Source of the DNA: Aphrocallistes beatrix
Lineage: Eukaryota; Porifera; Hexactinellida; Sceptrulophora; Aphrocallistidae
Direction: 5' to 3'
Length of the DNA stretch: 64,000 nt
NCBI GenBank assembly: GCA_963281255.1
Contig: OY725495.1
Coordinates: 2,232,001 to 2,296,000, forward strand
Part shown: positions 5,418 to 48,577 of the stretch, piece by piece
Numbering within the stretch: the first letter of the stretch is position 1
Layout: every line of letters starts with the position of its first letter
Notes under the pieces: generated by a model
Databases searched by the model: none
What the model was told of the DNA's origin: nothing
What the model saw: only the letters and a program-made list of their open reading frames with translations
Translations under genes and position numbers: made by a program

Positions 5418-6780
5418 CAGTGCGTTCGGAAATTATTGGCAGTGAATTAAATTAAGTGTAATTCAACATCTATGTTAAGATTGGTCACTTTTTTGAAGAC
5501 AACTATTAATTCGGGGCTCCCTCTTACAAAATATAATGGAGAAACTAATGTATTGCTAATAATTTATTTTTTTGCCATTTCCTTTGACACATAACCGAAT
5601 TCTTTTGTCCATGCTTAGACAAAATGGCTGTAAAAAGTCTAGATCAAATGTGTCCCATACCTCCAAAATAGCTTCCTTCAACTCATTTGTGTTAGTGAAT
5701 CTTTTTTTGAGGAGTCTTTTCTTCATTACAGCCCAAAGATTCTCAATTGGGTTGAGATCGGGGCTATTGGACGGCCAGTCGATCTGGTGGGGGACAAATT
5801 CTGTTTCCAAGCCCTTGTCGCCTTTCCAGTGTGAATAGGACTGTTATCCTCTTGCAATACCCATTGATTTCCATAAAAGGCATTAGCTTCATGTATAAGA
5901 CACTCATTTAAAACGGTTTTATATCGTTCCTGGTTGAAGTTTTCGGTGAAAATTTTGAGGTTCGTTTTACCTATTACCGAAATACCACCCCAAATATGAA
6001 GCTTCGATGGATGTTTGAAAGTTGGCAGATTAATGTCCTTTCTTTGTCCATACATAGATCTTGCCAGTATTCATCCATATACGTAGAGCATTCATCAGTA
6101 AAGAACACTTTAGACCAGTCCTGACCCCTCATTTTCCTACACCATTCCATTCGCTTAGCAATATGGAGAGGTGACAAGGCGGGAATTCTGTCTGCCTGGC
6201 GATATTGTAGGCCTCTCCTCTTCATTTCCTCCGATAGTGTAATTTTGGCAACTGGAGTACTCAATTTTGCTCGGCATTCATTCAGGGTAATCCTTGGATT
6301 GTGTTGAACGAGTGCCATAATCGGGTTCCTATCGGCTTTGTGCAATTTAGGAGGTCGACCTGCTCCTTTCTTATGAGTCAAGCTCTTTTTGTCAGAAATT
6401 GACATCAAAACACGATAGACTGTCCGCTCAGGTATCGTGAGGCGTCTCGATATTTCAGTCGCATTTGTTATCCCAGCTTCAAAGAGTCCCTTTATCTTGA
6501 TTCTATTCTTTTCCTGAGCCTTCATTCCAAAGTTGTGGAAAAATACAGACAGTCGAAATTAGAAAAGATGGGTCAAAAAGTGTGAGCAAAAATAATACGT
6601 ATAAAATTTGATTGTCATAATTTTTTTATAGGTTTAGCATAAAATAAGGCTATGCCTATGGATTTTTTAAAAGTGGAGTGTATACTTTAAGTTTTTATAA
6701 CTGATACAACTTATGTATGGTGAGTTAAGAATATATGTGAAGGATAATGAAATAATATTTACTGCCAATAATTCGCACTG
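5418..6780 (-). mobile_element. Tc1-type transposon
   Basis: TA dinucleotides at 5416-5417 and 6781-6782 flank inverted ends beginning CAGTGCG and containing AATTATTGGCAGT. The 1363-bp length is typical for Tc1. The flanks (CCTTATATA before, CAGCAGGCTATG after) together look like a family A foldback terminus, so the element appears to have jumped into one. Confidence 0.8.
5556..6525 (-). pseudogene. Tc1 transposase (DD34E), frameshifted
   Basis: Cut-and-paste transposase read on the minus strand in three frames. The N-terminal helix-turn-helix part starts MKAQEKNRIKIKGLFEAG and includes a GRPPK linker. The catalytic residues are D in VFFTDECS, D in LQEDNSPIHTG and E in DLNPIENLW; counting across the second frameshift gives 34 residues between the last two. 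Frameshifts near 6050 and 5800 break the protein into fragments of 183, 109 and 84 residues. All three acidic residues survive, so decay is moderate. Confidence 0.85.
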
Positions 6781-30548: not shown

Positions 30549-31502
30549 CTACCGAGCTTGCGTCTGCCTCAACATAGAACTCACTGTTCCAGGAAGGGTG
30601 ACCGGCTCATTCGTCAATCTTGCTCTCAGCTCCTCGAATGCTGTCTGACATTCCTCATCCCAGTTCCATTGCTGACCTTTCCTCAATAGTCTGTACAGCG
30701 GCTCAGCGATAACGTACATGTTTTTTATATAGCACCTATAGTAGTTGGCTGTCCCCAGAAACCGCTGAAGTTCCGCTACGCCCTTTGGCTGAGGGAAGGA
30801 CCGAAGCCTTTGAGTGTATCCAGGGACTGGTGTTGTCCCCTCAAAGGAAATGCGGTGCCCGAGAAATTCAACCGAACTATAGCCGAATTGGCATTTCTCC
30901 TTACGTAGTTGCAATCTAGCGGCTTGTAAACGCTTGAGGACCTCCCGTAGATGACTTAAGTGTGTGTCAAAATTCGGGAAAAATATCAAGATGTCGTCGA
31001 CGTAACTCTCGGCGTGGTGTACCCTATACAGTGCGTGATCCATCACCCTCTGAAAAGTGGCTGGCGTATTGCAAAGCCGGAAGAGCATCACGAGCATCTC
31101 GTACATCCCTCGAGTGTGAAACGCGGTCTTTTCGACATTTTCCGGTGCAATGGGAATCGTCCAATAGGCAGAGGCAATATCGAGCTTGGAAAAGAACCTG
31201 CTTCCTCCTAGTTTATCAAATATCGATTGAGGATTCGGCAGGTTGTACTCGTCCCGCTTGGTAACAGAATTGAGCTTGCGGTAGTCCACGGCGAATCTCA
31301 TGCTCACCTCCTTCTTTTTCACCAAAACGACGTCAGATGCCCAAGGAGAGTTGCTTGGCCTACAAATGGGCGGATCTGCAGCGAGCATCTCGTCCAATTG
31401 CCTGTCAATTTCGTGCTCCCAGTGAGGGGGTCTCTCCTCGGACGTACTTTCTGAGGTGGTGCGTCGCCGGTCAAAATCCTGTGGGTCTCCGTCAATTTGC
31501 AC
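30549..31502 (-). CDS. Gypsy reverse transcriptase, intact frame
   Basis: The 317-codon frame covers the RT fingers, palm and thumb: RPSNSPWASDVVLVKKK, MRFAVDYRKLN, SKLDIASAYW (first catalytic D), YVDDILIF (catalytic pair), EFLGHRISFEG, and FLGTANYYRCYI leading to the connection. The RNase H start EADASSVGVAVVLS follows in another frame at about 30540-30580. Losses are a frameshift into RNase H and truncation. Palm residues look intact, but the usual FGL before the primer-grip region reads FRL. Confidence 0.8.
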   Translation of the reverse strand: MQIDGDPQDFDRRRTTSESTSEERPPHWEHEIDRQLDEMLAADPPICRPSNSPWASDVVLVKKKEVSMRFAVDYRKLNSVTKRDEYNLPNPQSIFDKLGGSRFFSKLDIASAYWTIPIAPENVEKTAFHTRGMYEMLVMLFRLCNTPATFQRVMDHALYRVHHAESYVDDILIFFPNFDTHLSHLREVLKRLQAARLQLRKEKCQFGYSSVEFLGHRISFEGTTPVPGYTQRLRSFPQPKGVAELQRFLGTANYYRCYIKNMYVIAEPLYRLLRKGQQWNWDEECQTAFEELRARLTNEPVTLPGTVSSMLRQTQAR

Positions 31503-32008
31503 CTCTCCAACACCACTCTCCTCAGCCTGGATTCTTCCTTTTCTCCCAACTCGCTCGAAATGAGTCTGGCCTCAGTTCCTTCCTCGATATTGATCCCCTC
31601 GTCCTCTTTGTCCAGTTTAGCTGTTAGTGCTCTAGCCAGTGGGGTTGCCCCACTTAGTAAACTTTGCGCTGTAACCCAGGTGTGTCCCAATTTGGCGCGA
31701 CTGTTAGCCCAATCGAATGTCACTGGTCCGAAATGTCCCATAAACCTTCTGCCCAGTAGGAGAGTCGCCTCTGTGCTATCTAGCACCTGCACACGGTCGA
31801 TAACAGGCTTTAATGTTCCAATCTGAATGGCAACGTCAAGGTATCGCAAACCTTCACCGGGTTGTTGCACAATCCGTATACCTTGCTAGGTGCTGCCACT
31901 AACCTATCCTCCAGTTCCAGCTGACGCACCGTGCCCATACCTATAACGCTTGGCCTAGCTCCAGTGTCGATGCTGCCTAATTCGAATGAGTACCAATCTT
32001 TACTTCTA

Positions 32009-43635: not shown

Positions 43636-45633
43636 CAGTGGTTCCCAACCTTTCTTAACTCACGTACCCCTTCGAGATAGAAAATTTACCGCGTACCCCT
43701 GTGAAAAAGTATAGTTGAGTTTATTGTATGAATGTTTACTTACTTAGTACTAGAAAGAATTGCTTTGAGGAGTAGATTTATATATAACGTACTGTATAAT
43801 AAATTACGTGTGTTAATGAGACGGTTGCGATTGCTTCAATGCAGCTAGTTTCTTAATGTCAAGCGAAGTCTTAGCAATTGCACATCGCATGTCGTCTTGA
43901 ACAGACAATCGATTCCTGTGTTTGGTTTTTATGTGAAACAGTGTCGAAAAACCGGATTCACACAAGTAAGTGGAAGGAAATGGGAGTAGCAGTCTATTTG
44001 CCAGTTTAGATACTTTGGGGTAGGCATTGACCATCTTGCACCAGAAACTAATCAGATGAACTTCAGCGAACAATTCTTTTGCATTGCTATCATTGATCAA
44101 TTCAATGAATTCTTCCTGTTCGGCTTCTGGGATCGAATTAAAATCAACTTTGAAAGGATTTCTGACAAATTTGAAATCTCTGTCATTCACATCTTCAAAA
44201 TATGACAAAAAATATTTCTGTAGTGCTCTCAAGTGCACCAGAATTACCTCTTTCGTTTCAACATCTAAAACTGTCTTCTTCTCCGTAGTGAGTGCATTCA
44301 AAGTATGAAACTGGTCCAATTTTCCTTTGCTAATTTGACCACTCCACAGCTCTAGTTTCATTATGAATGCATTGACCTTATCCACAAAGTCAAGTATCGT
44401 GTTTTCTATTCCTTGAATGGATAAATTTAGTCTATTCAGTTGAGAAAAAATATCAACAAGGTAGGCAAGTTTTAGGCTCTGCTCGACAATGTTAAAATGC
44501 AACATAAAGTCTTGTTTATTCTTTTGCAAAATAAACTCTTGAATTTCGGCTCGTAATTCAAACACTCGCTTAACAACATTGCCTCTAGATAACCAGCGCA
44601 CTTCTATGTGAAATAGAAGGGTTTCTGAACTCGCATCTAGATCTTTACATAACTCTCGAAATAGACGTGTATTCAAAGAACTACTCTTAATATAGTTTAC
44701 CAATTTTATAACCCCAGACATAACATCCAAAAGCAAAGGTGGGAGTGTTTTAGCAGCAAGAGCATGTCTATGTATCATGCAATGAAGTGACAAAACTTCT
44801 GGAACTTGAGTTCTAGCTCGGGCTTGAAATCCTGAATGACATCCTAACATTGCAGGAGCCCCATCAGTACAGACACCACATAGGTTTTGCCAGACCAAAC
44901 CGTTATCGATAAAGAATTCGTAAACTTTTTCAAAAACATCAATTCCTCTTGTTGTTGTTTGTAAAGGCAGACAAAAGAGAAAATCTTCTTTGAATTCCCT
45001 ATCATGGATATCTCTGGCAAAGCAAATTAGCTGAGCACATGAAGCTACATCTGTTGACTCATCTAACTGGATACTGAATAAACCCAATGGTGCTGTTTTC
45101 ATCTCAGATACAACTTGTAACTTGACATCTTCTGACATATCTACGATACGACGGTGAACAGTGTTATTGGAAATGGATAATGGTGCTAATTTATTAACGT
45201 TATCTTCACCTAACATTAACTTAACTGCTTCTTTGATGCAAGGAAGGATCAAAGTTTCCCCAATTGTATGTGGTTTCTTTTGTTGAGCTATTTTCAAGGA
45301 AATAGCATAAGACGCTTCAATTGCCGAAACTGAAAGCTGATTAAACGTTCCAGTGGTATCTAATCGGGCTTTCTTTACACCACTTTCTTTTCGGACTATC
45401 TATTTATATTTATGACTGAAATATTATGTTTATATAAAACACTAATGAATACATACGTAAGTAGGATACAGTGAATCACAGTAAGTTTTTAGCGCCAACT
45501 TTATTATGATTCGTCTACTTGAATCCACAAGTTACCAATAATCTAAGATATCTCAATTAAGTAGTTCGCGTACCCCTAACAAAATGGCTCGCGTACCCCT
45601 AGGGATACGCGTACCCCAGGTTGGGAACCACTG
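43636..45633 (-). mobile_element. hAT transposon with 8-bp duplication
   Basis: The termini CAGTGGTTCCCAACCT and AGGTTGGGAACCACTG are perfect inverse matches over 16 bp. Both sides show the 8-bp duplication CTCTAGAT. Subterminal GTACCCC and CGCGTACCCC motifs lie inside both ends. The length is 1998 bp. Confidence 0.95.
43813..45395 (-). CDS. hAT transposase (ZBED5/FAM200-like), BED-less
   Basis: Uninterrupted frame of about 526 codons (open from 45399, stop at 43813). Counting from the Leu codon at 45295-45297 as residue 1, it has D79 (SIQLDEST), D145 (GVCTDGAPAM), the C/H cluster LHCMIHRHAL (173-178), RWLSRGN (234-240) with E247 in FELRAEI, and the dimerisation block FPSTYLCESGFSTL near the end, finishing KQSQPSH. 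These are the conserved hAT blocks and the acidic residues are present. The usual N-terminal BED finger is missing. The frame enters at an acceptor-like ATAG, and only about 240 bp remain before the TIR. No early ATG lies in the open frame. It is either an internally deleted copy or needs an exon I cannot see. It shares its ending with the remnant at 29.9 kb. Confidence 0.85.
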
Positions 45634-45696
45634 CTCTAGATGATATGTCTTGTGCTCTGTATCCATTTATGATATACTTAGTCAATAAGTAGTATT

Positions 45697-46132
45697 GGGT
45701 CCGCACATTTTGATCAAATTTTCAGTAGAACTTTGATCGAATTCTCGGATGTCGAATTTTGATCAAAAAGTCAAAATTGATGAATTTGATCAAAGTTCTA
45801 CATTAATTGACTCATGTAGAACTTTGATCAAAACAATGTAGAACTGTGATCAAAATGACAAATGTCGAAATTTGATCAAAGTTCTACATCAACTGGCTCA
45901 TGTAGAACTGTGATCAAAACGATGTAGAACTTTGATCAAATAGGTAGAACTGTGATCAAATCAGTAGAACTGTGATCAAATCAGTAGAACTTTGATCAAA
46001 TCAGTAGAACTGTGATCAAATCAGTAGAACTTTGATCAAATCAGTAGAACTTTGATTTTTTTAATGATTTGTAATCTCGTATGATTATTTTCCGTATTTG
46101 TTTTCTACTTGTGTGTCCCCATTTAGTTTAGA
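45697..46132 (+). repeat. MULE left TIR with 20-bp motif array
   Basis: GTAGAACTNTGATCAAATCA repeats about eight times at 45940-46060, and looser copies fill the outer part. TGATCA is palindromic. The inner part (TTTCTACTTGTGTG region) is duplicated again at 46142-46235. Confidence 0.9.
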
Positions 46133-46257
46133 TATTCACTTTGATCAAATCAGTAGAACTTTGATTTTTTTAATGATTTGTAATCTCGTATGATTATTTT
46201 CCGCATTTGTTTTCTACTTGTGTGTTCCCATTTAGCCCAGTAATTCCTAAGTAGTGG

Positions 46258-46265
46258 TATTTAAG
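46258..46265 (+). promoter_or_regulatory. Possible TATA-like box of the MULE gene
   Basis: TATTTAAG lies 84 bp before the ATG at 46349, just inside the left TIR's duplicated segment. Placement is plausible, but no start-site data support it. Confidence 0.35.
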
Positions 46266-46348
46266 TCTAATTCCTTTGATTCTTCATCTTTTTCTATCTT
46301 GTCAACTACTTCATTTTATCGATCTTTCACTCGTAATCTGGATAATTA

Positions 46349-47953
46349 ATGAATTATAGGATTTTAGAAGGTAAGAAGTTAGGCTCTCGGAACTACGAAA
46401 GTCAAGGGTATCTCTATACAGCTTCTTCGTCTAATGAAAAATGCATCTATTTGAGATGTACCCTTTGGCGAACTAACGGAATTGAGTGTTCTGGATCTGG
46501 ACGAATAGATCTATCAAGCAATCTTTTCTATTCTAAACAAGTTCATTGTCATACACAAGAGACTTATCACTCAGATATCATAGCTCTCAAAAATCAAATT
46601 AAACTTGCTGCTCAACGGTCAACTGAGAACCTCCGACAGGTATTTGATGATGTGACCTCGGTGGATGGTGCAGGTGCTTTAGTAACTTATAAAAATCTAC
46701 GTAACACAATGCTCAAAAGAAGAAGGTTAGAAATACCCGGCAATCCAAAAACACCCGAAGAATTTGAAGAAATGTTATTTCAAACCCGTTTTTCAATTTT
46801 TTTCCGATCAATGATCATTCATCAAGAAGGTTTTGCTGCAATATTTTGGTCCGATCTTATGTTTGAATCTCTGAAAGATAGTCAATCCGTAAATTTCGAT
46901 GGGACTTTTCATGTAGTACCGAAATTATTCTATCAGTTGTTTACAATTTTCATTCAGGACGGTCATCATGCTTTTCCCGCTATACACGTTCTAATGTCTA
47001 AAAAGTCTGAATTCCTTTATGAAGAGGTTCTGCGGAAGATTGTACATTTGATACCTGAATTTCAACCAAAATTAGCAGTCGGTGATTACGAAAAGGCTCC
47101 AAGAAATGCCTTTCGTACAATTTATACTACTATTGAAGTATCTGGCTGTCTCTTCCATTATACTAAAGCTATTTGGAAAAGAGTGAAAAAACTACAGCTT
47201 TCTTCTACCTATACAAAAAACTGCAATTTCAACAAATGGATAAGGTCTATAATGGCTCTTCCCATGCTACCCAAAGAAGAAATTGCAACAGTATATCGAT
47301 TATTATCAGATGTTTCATGTTTGAATCTAAACCAAACGGAAATAGCTCCTCTCAATAAACTTAGATGTTACATTAAAAAAGAATGGATTAACAGAAATGA
47401 TTTTTCAGTCTATGGTTCGATACAGAAAACTAACAATTGCTGTGAAGTTTATCATAAGTCCTTGAAGTCCATTATTCGGGTTAAAAGGCCTAATTTATGG
47501 GCATTTATGGAATTTCTTGAGAAAAATTTGAAAAAATATGATCTTGAATACCAGAGGAAGAAAAATGGTTTAGAAATTGGGAATCGAAGTAAAAAGGATG
47601 TTGATAACGAAGAGAAGAGAAATCGCTGTAAAGCAAAGCTTGAGAATAAAGAATTTACCCCTGTCGAGTATCTCGAAGAAGTTTCAAATACTATTGGTAA
47701 TCAACAATATTATAACTACTCTGATTCCACAGATTCAGAAGAAAATTATGATGAAGATTCTGATGATATAATTGATGAAGAAACGGTGATAAATCAATGT
47801 GTTATTTGTTTGCAAAATAGAGTTTCGACATTTGTCTTACTTCCTTGTGGTCATGCACAAATTTGTGGAAATTGTGAGCCAAATTTCAACCTAGGTGATA
47901 GATGTCCTACTTGTCGTTCTCTGATAATGAACAAGCAACAGATTTTCCAATAG
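46349..47953 (+). CDS. MULE transposase with FLYWCH and RING fingers
   Basis: Intact 534-residue protein. Residues about 12-68 look like a FLYWCH-type zinc finger (C32, C37, C47, and H66/H68 in VHCH), the usual DNA-binding module of animal MULEs. The MULE catalytic domain follows: D184 in NFDGTF, D246 in AVGDYEKAP, the C267/H270 pair in GCLFHY, and E366 in NNCCEVYHKS. An acidic Ser/Asp/Glu-rich linker (about 455-480) leads to a C-terminal C3HC4 RING at 484-522 (CVICL, LPCGHAQICGNC, CPTC), as in ubiquitin E3 ligases. It has a single exon and no stops or shifts. ATG 46349 is the first in frame. Transposase function is well supported; ligase activity is inferred from the eight RING ligands being present. 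Confidence 0.92.
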   Translation: MNYRILEGKKLGSRNYESQGYLYTASSSNEKCIYLRCTLWRTNGIECSGSGRIDLSSNLFYSKQVHCHTQETYHSDIIALKNQIKLAAQRSTENLRQVFDDVTSVDGAGALVTYKNLRNTMLKRRRLEIPGNPKTPEEFEEMLFQTRFSIFFRSMIIHQEGFAAIFWSDLMFESLKDSQSVNFDGTFHVVPKLFYQLFTIFIQDGHHAFPAIHVLMSKKSEFLYEEVLRKIVHLIPEFQPKLAVGDYEKAPRNAFRTIYTTIEVSGCLFHYTKAIWKRVKKLQLSSTYTKNCNFNKWIRSIMALPMLPKEEIATVYRLLSDVSCLNLNQTEIAPLNKLRCYIKKEWINRNDFSVYGSIQKTNNCCEVYHKSLKSIIRVKRPNLWAFMEFLEKNLKKYDLEYQRKKNGLEIGNRSKKDVDNEEKRNRCKAKLENKEFTPVEYLEEVSNTIGNQQYYNYSDSTDSEENYDEDSDDIIDEETVINQCVICLQNRVSTFVLLPCGHAQICGNCEPNFNLGDRCPTCRSLIMNKQQIFQ

Positions 47954-48225
47954 TTAGCGATAAACATTTTAGGAACTCGTGTATAGCATACAGAAGCTAT
48001 TGCGGACTAGTTTTAGAAGTTTCTAGCTTTATTCGTGTAACCAGTTAGTTTCTAGCAACCTACAATTCAGTATACGTATCATATTGTTAACTTTATGTGT
48101 GACTTGTTACTAGGTTTTATGTTACACTTGAGAATCTACATTGTAGTATCTCTTTCTGATGTGAATAACATAATTACAGCTAGAGTAGTCATTAAATTAA
48201 CTAGCAAGCTGAATATCTGAACTAA

Positions 48226-48569
48226 ATGGGGACACACAAGTAGAAAACAAATACGGAAAATAATCATACGAGATTACAAATCATTAAAAAAATCAAAGTT
48301 CTACTGATTTGATCACAGTTCTACTGATTTGATCACAGTTCTACTGATTTGATCACAGTTCTACATGAGCCAGTTGATGTAGAACTTTGATCAAATTTCG
48401 ACATTTGTCATTTTGATCACAGTTCTACATTGTTTTGATCAAAGTTCTACATGAGTCAATTAATGTAGAACTTTGATCAAATTCATCAATTTTGACTTTT
48501 TGATCAAAATTCGACATCCGAGAATTCGATCAAAGTTCTACTGAAAATTTGATCAAAATGTGCGGACCC
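48226..48569 (-). repeat. MULE right TIR
   Basis: Mirror of the left TIR with only about four tandem 20-bp units, hence about 90 bp shorter. Outer segments match the left end closely. Confidence 0.9.
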
Positions 48570-48577
48570 GTAGTATT

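Follow-up and report, generated by a model that had tools for sequence, protein, structure and literature searches.

What is a RING finger doing at the end of a transposase? The question is raised by a 64,000-nucleotide stretch of the genome of the hexactinellid sponge Aphrocallistes beatrix (OY725495.1, positions 2,232,001 to 2,296,000; here called the window, and lying on contig C9 of our search set). At 45697-48569 it holds an intact Mutator-like element (MULE) of 2,873 bp, which reads as an autonomous-looking, foldback-ended animal DNA transposon and whose single-frame transposase ends in a C3HC4 RING. We think that the element comes from a MULE lineage with an IAP/MDM2-type RING at the transposase C-terminus, and that this RING may act as a ubiquitin ligase during transposition; we put the probability of this reading at about 0.6.

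The transposase frame

An earlier, sequence-only reading had proposed an intact MULE here. Its coordinates prove exact, and the 222-nt perfect arms, the 8-bp duplication and the stop-free frame of 534 codons all hold. Within the frame, the parts are as follows (dN/dS, ratio of nonsynonymous to synonymous substitution rates):

46349-47953, + strand: transposase frame, 534 residues, ATG start, no internal stop (list of open reading frames, translation)
46403-46552, + strand: FLYWCH-like finger, residues 19-68 (C37, C47, H66, H68); weak alone, backed by relatives
46889-47167, + strand: MULE DDE catalytic domain, residues 181-273 (D184, D246, C267xxH270); PF10551 E 1.3e-9, aligned rows
47444-47446, + strand: codon for E366, the third of the catalytic residues, in a TNNxxE motif; 16 of 18 rows have E here
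47669-47788, + strand: variable acidic and Ser-rich linker, residues 441-480; dN/dS 0.32-0.55 between subfamilies
47792-47926, + strand: C3HC4 RING finger, residues 482-526; PF13920 E 6.2e-10, IAP RINGs the best solved matches
47915-47950, + strand: C-terminal tail of the RING, residues 523-534, with linchpin-type R523 and aromatic F533 at +11; tail alignment, cIAP1 R606/F616

This is the longest of the seven open reading frames of at least 150 residues listed in the window. Its RING and MULE domains both match above the Pfam cut-offs; Pfam finds no BIR or other substrate-binding domain at E <= 1. By itself the window protein has no significant FLYWCH match (E 0.89; 10.2 bits, where the cut-off is 23.6), and the finger is assigned because family members match it and its ligands are kept: nine of 32 fragments from the family reach E <= 0.01; several of the FLYWCH places in the genome fall on RING-MULE loci (L026, L030, L032, and L034, for example); and aligned rows keep C37 and C47 in 17 of 17 cases, H66 and H68 in 16 of 17. 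The catalytic residues are kept similarly: D184 in 18 of 18 rows, D246 in 14 of 16, E366 in 16 of 18, C267 in 16 of 16, and H270 in 15 of 17. The RING has its full set of eight ligands (C484, C487, C500, H502, C506, C509, C519, and C522). The FLYWCH-like finger, DDE residues, and C3HC4 ligands named by the sequence-only reading are therefore all confirmed, the finger through its relatives.

A RING inherited with the transposase?

Did one copy pick up this RING, or does it belong to a lineage? The genome searched comprises 100.5 Mb in 28 contigs, and counts from it are lower bounds. The window protein has at least 87 matches there. Two RING searches, joined, give at least 141 RING places, of which 38 follow a MULE catalytic domain immediately on its 3' side, in the same orientation; the other 103, an unsorted mix that includes host genes as well as decayed copies (L013 and L030, for instance), start at least 3 kb from the start of any catalytic place found, on either strand. 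Seen from the transposase side, 36 of the 61 catalytic places matched by the window protein have a RING in range. The frame runs unbroken from catalytic part to RING in P0001, L021, L022, L028, and L034. Among the 18 relatives in which a RING stretch is seen, 15 retain the full ligand set (rows not selected by ligand pattern), and the RINGs of other families are 33-69% identical to that of the window.

A tree built from 28 catalytic rows separates the 19 of the RING lineage from the nine of non-RING MULEs by one 100/100 branch. The split holds for the sampled rows, which were picked from 20 loci by similarity to the window protein and from 10 loci as MULEs without a RING; L017 and L019 (too short) and the non-RING L040 were left out. 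Across 15 rows, distances between RINGs correlate with distances between catalytic domains (r 0.37, a value reached in 9 of 2000 permutations), which is what joint descent would produce. These comparisons support the view that the RING is an old part of the transposon, inherited with the transposase in a multi-family lineage.

The sequence-only reading had attached the RING to the transposase, and this stands: neither a single old copy nor a separate host RING gene turned up, and the latter is ruled out by relatives with a RING inside the transposon frame. A programmed stop was likewise rejected, as the single in-frame stops differ in place (about 204 in L021, 239 in L022, 338 in L024, and 430 in L020), which fits decay. 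Relatives were not found in viral contigs (with the window protein and an alignment as queries) or in prokaryote genomes.

The genome holds a second intact MULE-RING frame, L028:2897-4531, which encodes 545 residues and is 30% identical to the window protein. Its FLYWCH match is weaker (E 2.6e-4, below the cut-off); it is flanked by inverted repeats of a different unit, and the duplication test found no target duplication. FLYWCH-MULE proteins without a RING also occur, ending soon after the catalytic domain; one of these, L037, has both FLYWCH and MULE over their cut-offs. It belongs to a second, RING-less MULE lineage (L036, L037, L038, and L041; L042-L045 are more diverged). The first four are near-identical open frames, so this lineage may also have moved recently.

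Which kind of RING?

The solved sequence relatives of the window RING are led by cIAP2, cIAP1, and XIAP. Solved matches to the family profile, among 60 of 89 sequences, have BIRC3 (cIAP2) and BIRC2 (cIAP1) at the top, then CGRRF1, MGRN1, XIAP, MUL1, and MEX3C, with MDM2 further down. In cIAP1, the linchpin Arg606 comes directly after Cys605, and Phe616, 11 residues after Cys605, packs on donor ubiquitin in trans (PMC6349121). The XIAP alteration F495A abolishes ligase activity (PMC3944466; also PMC5503512), and the linchpin place in XIAP is a Tyr (PMC12326332).

The sponge family has an Arg right after the last zinc ligand (+1) in 14 of 14 RING rows, and Phe or Tyr at +11 in 13 of 14, with the frame stopping one or two residues later in those 13; the rows were chosen with the ligand pattern, and neither Arg nor aromatic was selected for. 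(The exception, L026, has a tail unlike that of its near copy L024.) The window RING resembles those of cIAP1, XIAP, and MDM2 in being a C-terminal C3HC4 RING, and that of cIAP1 also in the spacing of the +1 Arg and +11 aromatic, XIAP having Tyr at +1. Unlike these proteins, the window protein has no BIR or p53-binding domain, and its RING is fused to a transposase. The alignment thus supports a RING that resembles the dimeric IAP/MDM2 type and has residues known from active dimeric E3 ubiquitin ligases. The sequence-only reading had credited it with E3-ligase potential, to which these residues lend substance; its suggestion of control over the stability of its own or host factors stays a guess.

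Between subfamilies, dN/dS is 0.11-0.25 for the RING and 0.06-0.24 for the catalytic part (six pairs with finite dS in each case), and the linker range noted above comes from seven pairs. Roughly, then, the RING appears about as constrained as the catalytic core, and the linker looser. For four near-copy pairs, the full-length values are 0.64-1.26, and those of single regions 0.25 to 1.38. Taken together, this looks like a domain that is maintained during mobility and released from constraint after insertion.

Ends, copies, and recent movement

The element is bounded by the following features:

45689-45696, no strand: target site duplication, left copy, 8 bp, GTAGTATT (duplication test)
45697-45918, no strand: left terminal inverted repeat, perfect part, 222 nt, beginning GGGTCCGCAC; 100% complementary to 48348-48569
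45919-46246, no strand: remainder of the left foldback-like arm, with a 109-bp direct duplication and the greater part of the 20-bp repeat array
48205-48347, no strand: inner part of the right foldback-like arm, with most of the 20-bp repeats at 48292-48364
48348-48569, no strand: right terminal inverted repeat, perfect part, 222 nt; 100% complementary to 45697-45918
48570-48577, no strand: target site duplication, right copy, 8 bp, GTAGTATT (duplication test)

Imperfect inverted similarity continues beyond the perfect parts, inward to 46246 on the left and 48205 on the right. The arms are made of short repeats: the 20-bp unit lies at 45902-46056 and 48292-48364, and the 109-bp direct duplication of the left arm at 46029-46235. 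The whole left arm (550 nt) contains 14 TGATCA sites; one arm has 12 copies of GTAGAACTKTGATC and the other 8, and the remaining 61,127 bases of the window have none.

With its catalytic domain, its long terminal inverted repeats, and an exact 8-bp duplication on both sides (within the 8-11 bp of the superfamily), the element shows the hallmarks of a MULE. Perfect duplications of 8 or 9 bp flank six of 19 elements tried (the window element, L016, L017, L029, L033, and L035; five subfamilies), and none was found at the other 13; the mispaired ends of the same 19, used as a control, gave 0 of 380. Inverted repeats, not all of them proven element ends, flank 16 of 18 RING-lineage loci tried, and were not found at L018 and L030.

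Three elements have the same exact ends: that of the window, a copy on contig C17, and a copy on contig C1. These two near-identical copies, the sort that the sequence-only reading had proposed counting, are 99.2% (C17) and 98.9% (C1) identical to the window element over 927 bp. Both are internally deleted, keep only about the first 240 codons, and cannot make a whole transposase. They have seven differences from the window element in common (the C1 copy has three more), so they are sister derivatives. The C17 copy has its own 8-bp duplication; for the C1 copy, the test accepted none. The window element is the only full-length one found with these ends. Compared with L017 and L019 it shows 0 synonymous and few nonsynonymous changes, which yields no dN/dS. 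The proposed check for empty sites came back negative in the one assembly: the joined flanks match only the two flanks themselves. Of the earlier suggestion of recent or current activity, the first part finds moderate support, since copies and ends fit a recent movement of the element; they fall short of proving that it is active now.

A ubiquitin ligase at paired ends?

These observations suggest a model in which the FLYWCH finger would bind the repeat-rich transposon ends and the transposase would assemble on the paired ends, so that the RINGs could pair in the synaptic complex. Each tail aromatic might then help to hold the ubiquitin-charged E2 of the partner subunit (activation in trans). 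The complex would be a ubiquitin ligase during transposition, its target most likely, as a guess, the transposase itself or proteins at the cut ends; ubiquitination would limit the transposase dose or clear the complex after strand transfer. Such self-limitation or clearing seems likelier than a distant host target, given that the RING is part of an enzyme that sits on DNA and that the protein shows no substrate-binding domain. We advance a broader version tentatively, at somewhat less than even odds: that dimeric IAP-type ligase transposases occur across a whole animal MULE lineage, that ubiquitin transfer at paired ends is required for transposition or regulates it, and that all this arose independently of the RAG1 RING.

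Several points weigh against the ligase model. No RING is in range at 25 of the 61 catalytic places; among these are deleted copies (L017 and L019) and non-RING lineages (L039, L044, and L045, for example), and one, L032, seems split by an insertion. The ligand set is incomplete in three of the 18 RING-stretch relatives (L013, L016, and L035), as expected of decayed copies. L018, in which no RING is seen, falls inside the RING group of the tree and spoils a neat split. The invariance of the ligands in the 14 RING rows is partly circular, the rows having been chosen with that pattern, and these rows include two near-copy pairs (L024/L026 and L025/L031). In most between-subfamily pairs dS is near saturation, and in some infinite, which makes the dN/dS values rough. 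Finally, AlphaFold2 run on the single protein sequence gave no usable fold (mean predicted local distance difference test, pLDDT, 36.9).

The main rival sees in the RING a cross-brace zinc finger with a structural or DNA-binding role, which would pair subunits or bind the 20-bp repeats of the ends without transferring ubiquitin. PiggyBac provides a precedent: its C-terminal domain, a cross-brace finger of PHD-like type, binds to a motif that is repeated in the ends of that transposon (PMC8086355). The abundance of a short repeat in the arms, with GTAGAACTKTGATC absent from the rest of the window, suits such a role, as does the slightly basic composition (by eye) of the window RING. However, neither the linchpin-type Arg (14 of 14) nor the +11 aromatic (13 of 14) is an expected requirement of a plain DNA-binding or dimerization fold; the solved matches listed are E3 RINGs, IAPs first, and the RING family PF13920 is above its cut-off; and the FLYWCH-like finger already provides a DNA-binding domain. 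We consider this explanation doubtful, though the best of the alternatives.

Less probable still is an anti-host effector, a RING that marks a host silencing, DNA-damage, or cell-death protein with ubiquitin and thereby keeps cells alive despite transposition breaks. IAPs and MDM2 restrain cell death, and the closest solved RINGs listed are those of IAPs, with that of MDM2 further down. Yet only the RING is IAP-like, the Pfam listing to E <= 1 showing no BIR or other domain with which to choose a substrate, and a RING on a DNA-bound transposase more likely acts on what sits at the element ends.

MULEs tend to pick up host gene fragments (PMC6446971), and the RING could in principle be such a fragment, captured Pack-MULE style by one copy and functionless. 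The relatives already contradict this: the fusion is present in many families with diverged RINGs, the RING is constrained, and the tail residues are conserved. It is very improbable. Least credible of all is a domesticated host gene with its frame kept open for a cell function, as the sole full-length element with these ends and its intact frame might suggest, because arms that match perfectly over 222 bp, an exact duplication of 8 bp, and two deleted copies of nearly the same sequence point to a recently moved transposon.

Neighbors in the window and other sequences

Directly left of the MULE lies a hAT-type frame of 494 residues (43813-45297, - strand; PF05699 E 6.4e-6), and a CAGTGGTTCCC-like hAT end seems by eye to be at about 45633, about 60 bases from the MULE insertion. 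Farther away are a reverse transcriptase frame (30549-31502, - strand; PF00078 E 6.1e-27), by its looks the remnant of a long terminal repeat-type retroelement; beside it, a frame at 31319-31870 with no Pfam match at E 0.001; and a fragment of a Tc1/mariner-type transposase (5974-6525, - strand; PF01498 E 7.1e-10). Elsewhere, locus L015 on the mitochondrial contig C28 shows frames that by eye resemble nad2, nad3, cox1, and cox2, in that order; the COX1 frame fits the invertebrate code, with AGA at serine-like positions.

Comparison with known systems

We file the element as a MULE that appears Phantom-like in anatomy, a likeness to published descriptions rather than to sequences. Phantom MULEs are group 20 of PMC6446971, and include Tm1 of root-knot nematodes (PMC3169594). 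Like the window element they are animal MULEs with an N-terminal FLYWCH finger and a MULE domain (the Tm1 transposase has 496 residues); some members have foldback-like arms of short tandem repeats and target duplications of 8-10 bp, and aphid members contain a mini-satellite. In contrast to the window element, they are given no RING in the table of PMC6446971, and the Tm1 text (PMC3169594) contains no word beginning with "ring".

Ghost MULEs (group 7 of PMC6446971) occur in aphids, spiders, and cnidarians. Their most complete member, from Myzus cerasi, has a RING open reading frame beside that of the MULE transposase; there, however, the RING is in a separate 420-bp frame, the transposase frame is truncated, and neither arms nor target duplication were found (PMC6446971). 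In the window protein 61 residues lie between the first and second catalytic Asp, against 84 in Ghost and 60-76 in other clades, figures published as "amino acids and gaps" (PMC13359780); as these include alignment gaps, the difference from Ghost is at most suggestive, and we make no claim of Ghost membership. That 2026 survey of 4,268 arthropod genomes does not use "RING finger", "FLYWCH", or "zf-C3HC4" in its main text. Nor did the literature within scope, outside which subscription papers and Repbase lay, yield a described MULE transposase with an in-frame C-terminal RING.

MULEs with extra domains are on record, among them OTU in MuDR-6_HM and a C3HC4 ring finger in the Phytophthora MULE 37_Pi (PMC6446971). 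The latter is a single oomycete element of a mainly plant MUDR group, whereas the window RING appears to belong to a whole animal lineage.

In RAG1, the RING is N-terminal. RAG1 and the RING-bearing Chapaev elements resemble the window protein in joining a DDE-type transposase or recombinase and a RING in one chain, and the RING of RAG1 shows ubiquitin ligase activity; they differ in belonging to the Transib superfamily (with Chapaev) and in the Chapa domain found there, whereas the window protein is a MULE with an IAP-type RING at its extreme C-terminus (PMC4411706). The same paper stated in 2015 that no known transposable elements except those of the Chapaev kind encode a RING. This universal is too broad, as gag proteins of Osvaldo-type retrotransposons carry one (PMC3630058); RING also appears in a figure-legend list of domain names for Drosophila virilis elements (PMC12910113). 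RING-bearing transposases thus have precedents, and the window element is a variant of them, its RING lying in frame at the C-terminus.

Should such a domain have been acquired by transposases repeatedly, it becomes easier to ask why the RAG1 recombinase has a ubiquitin ligase. At 2.9 kb, intact and with a single frame, the window element is a system in which mobility could be followed after removal of R523, F533, or the entire RING. It also gives an idea of the complete form of an animal MULE associated with a RING, the nearest case in the papers covered being a broken aphid Ghost copy with its RING in a separate frame.

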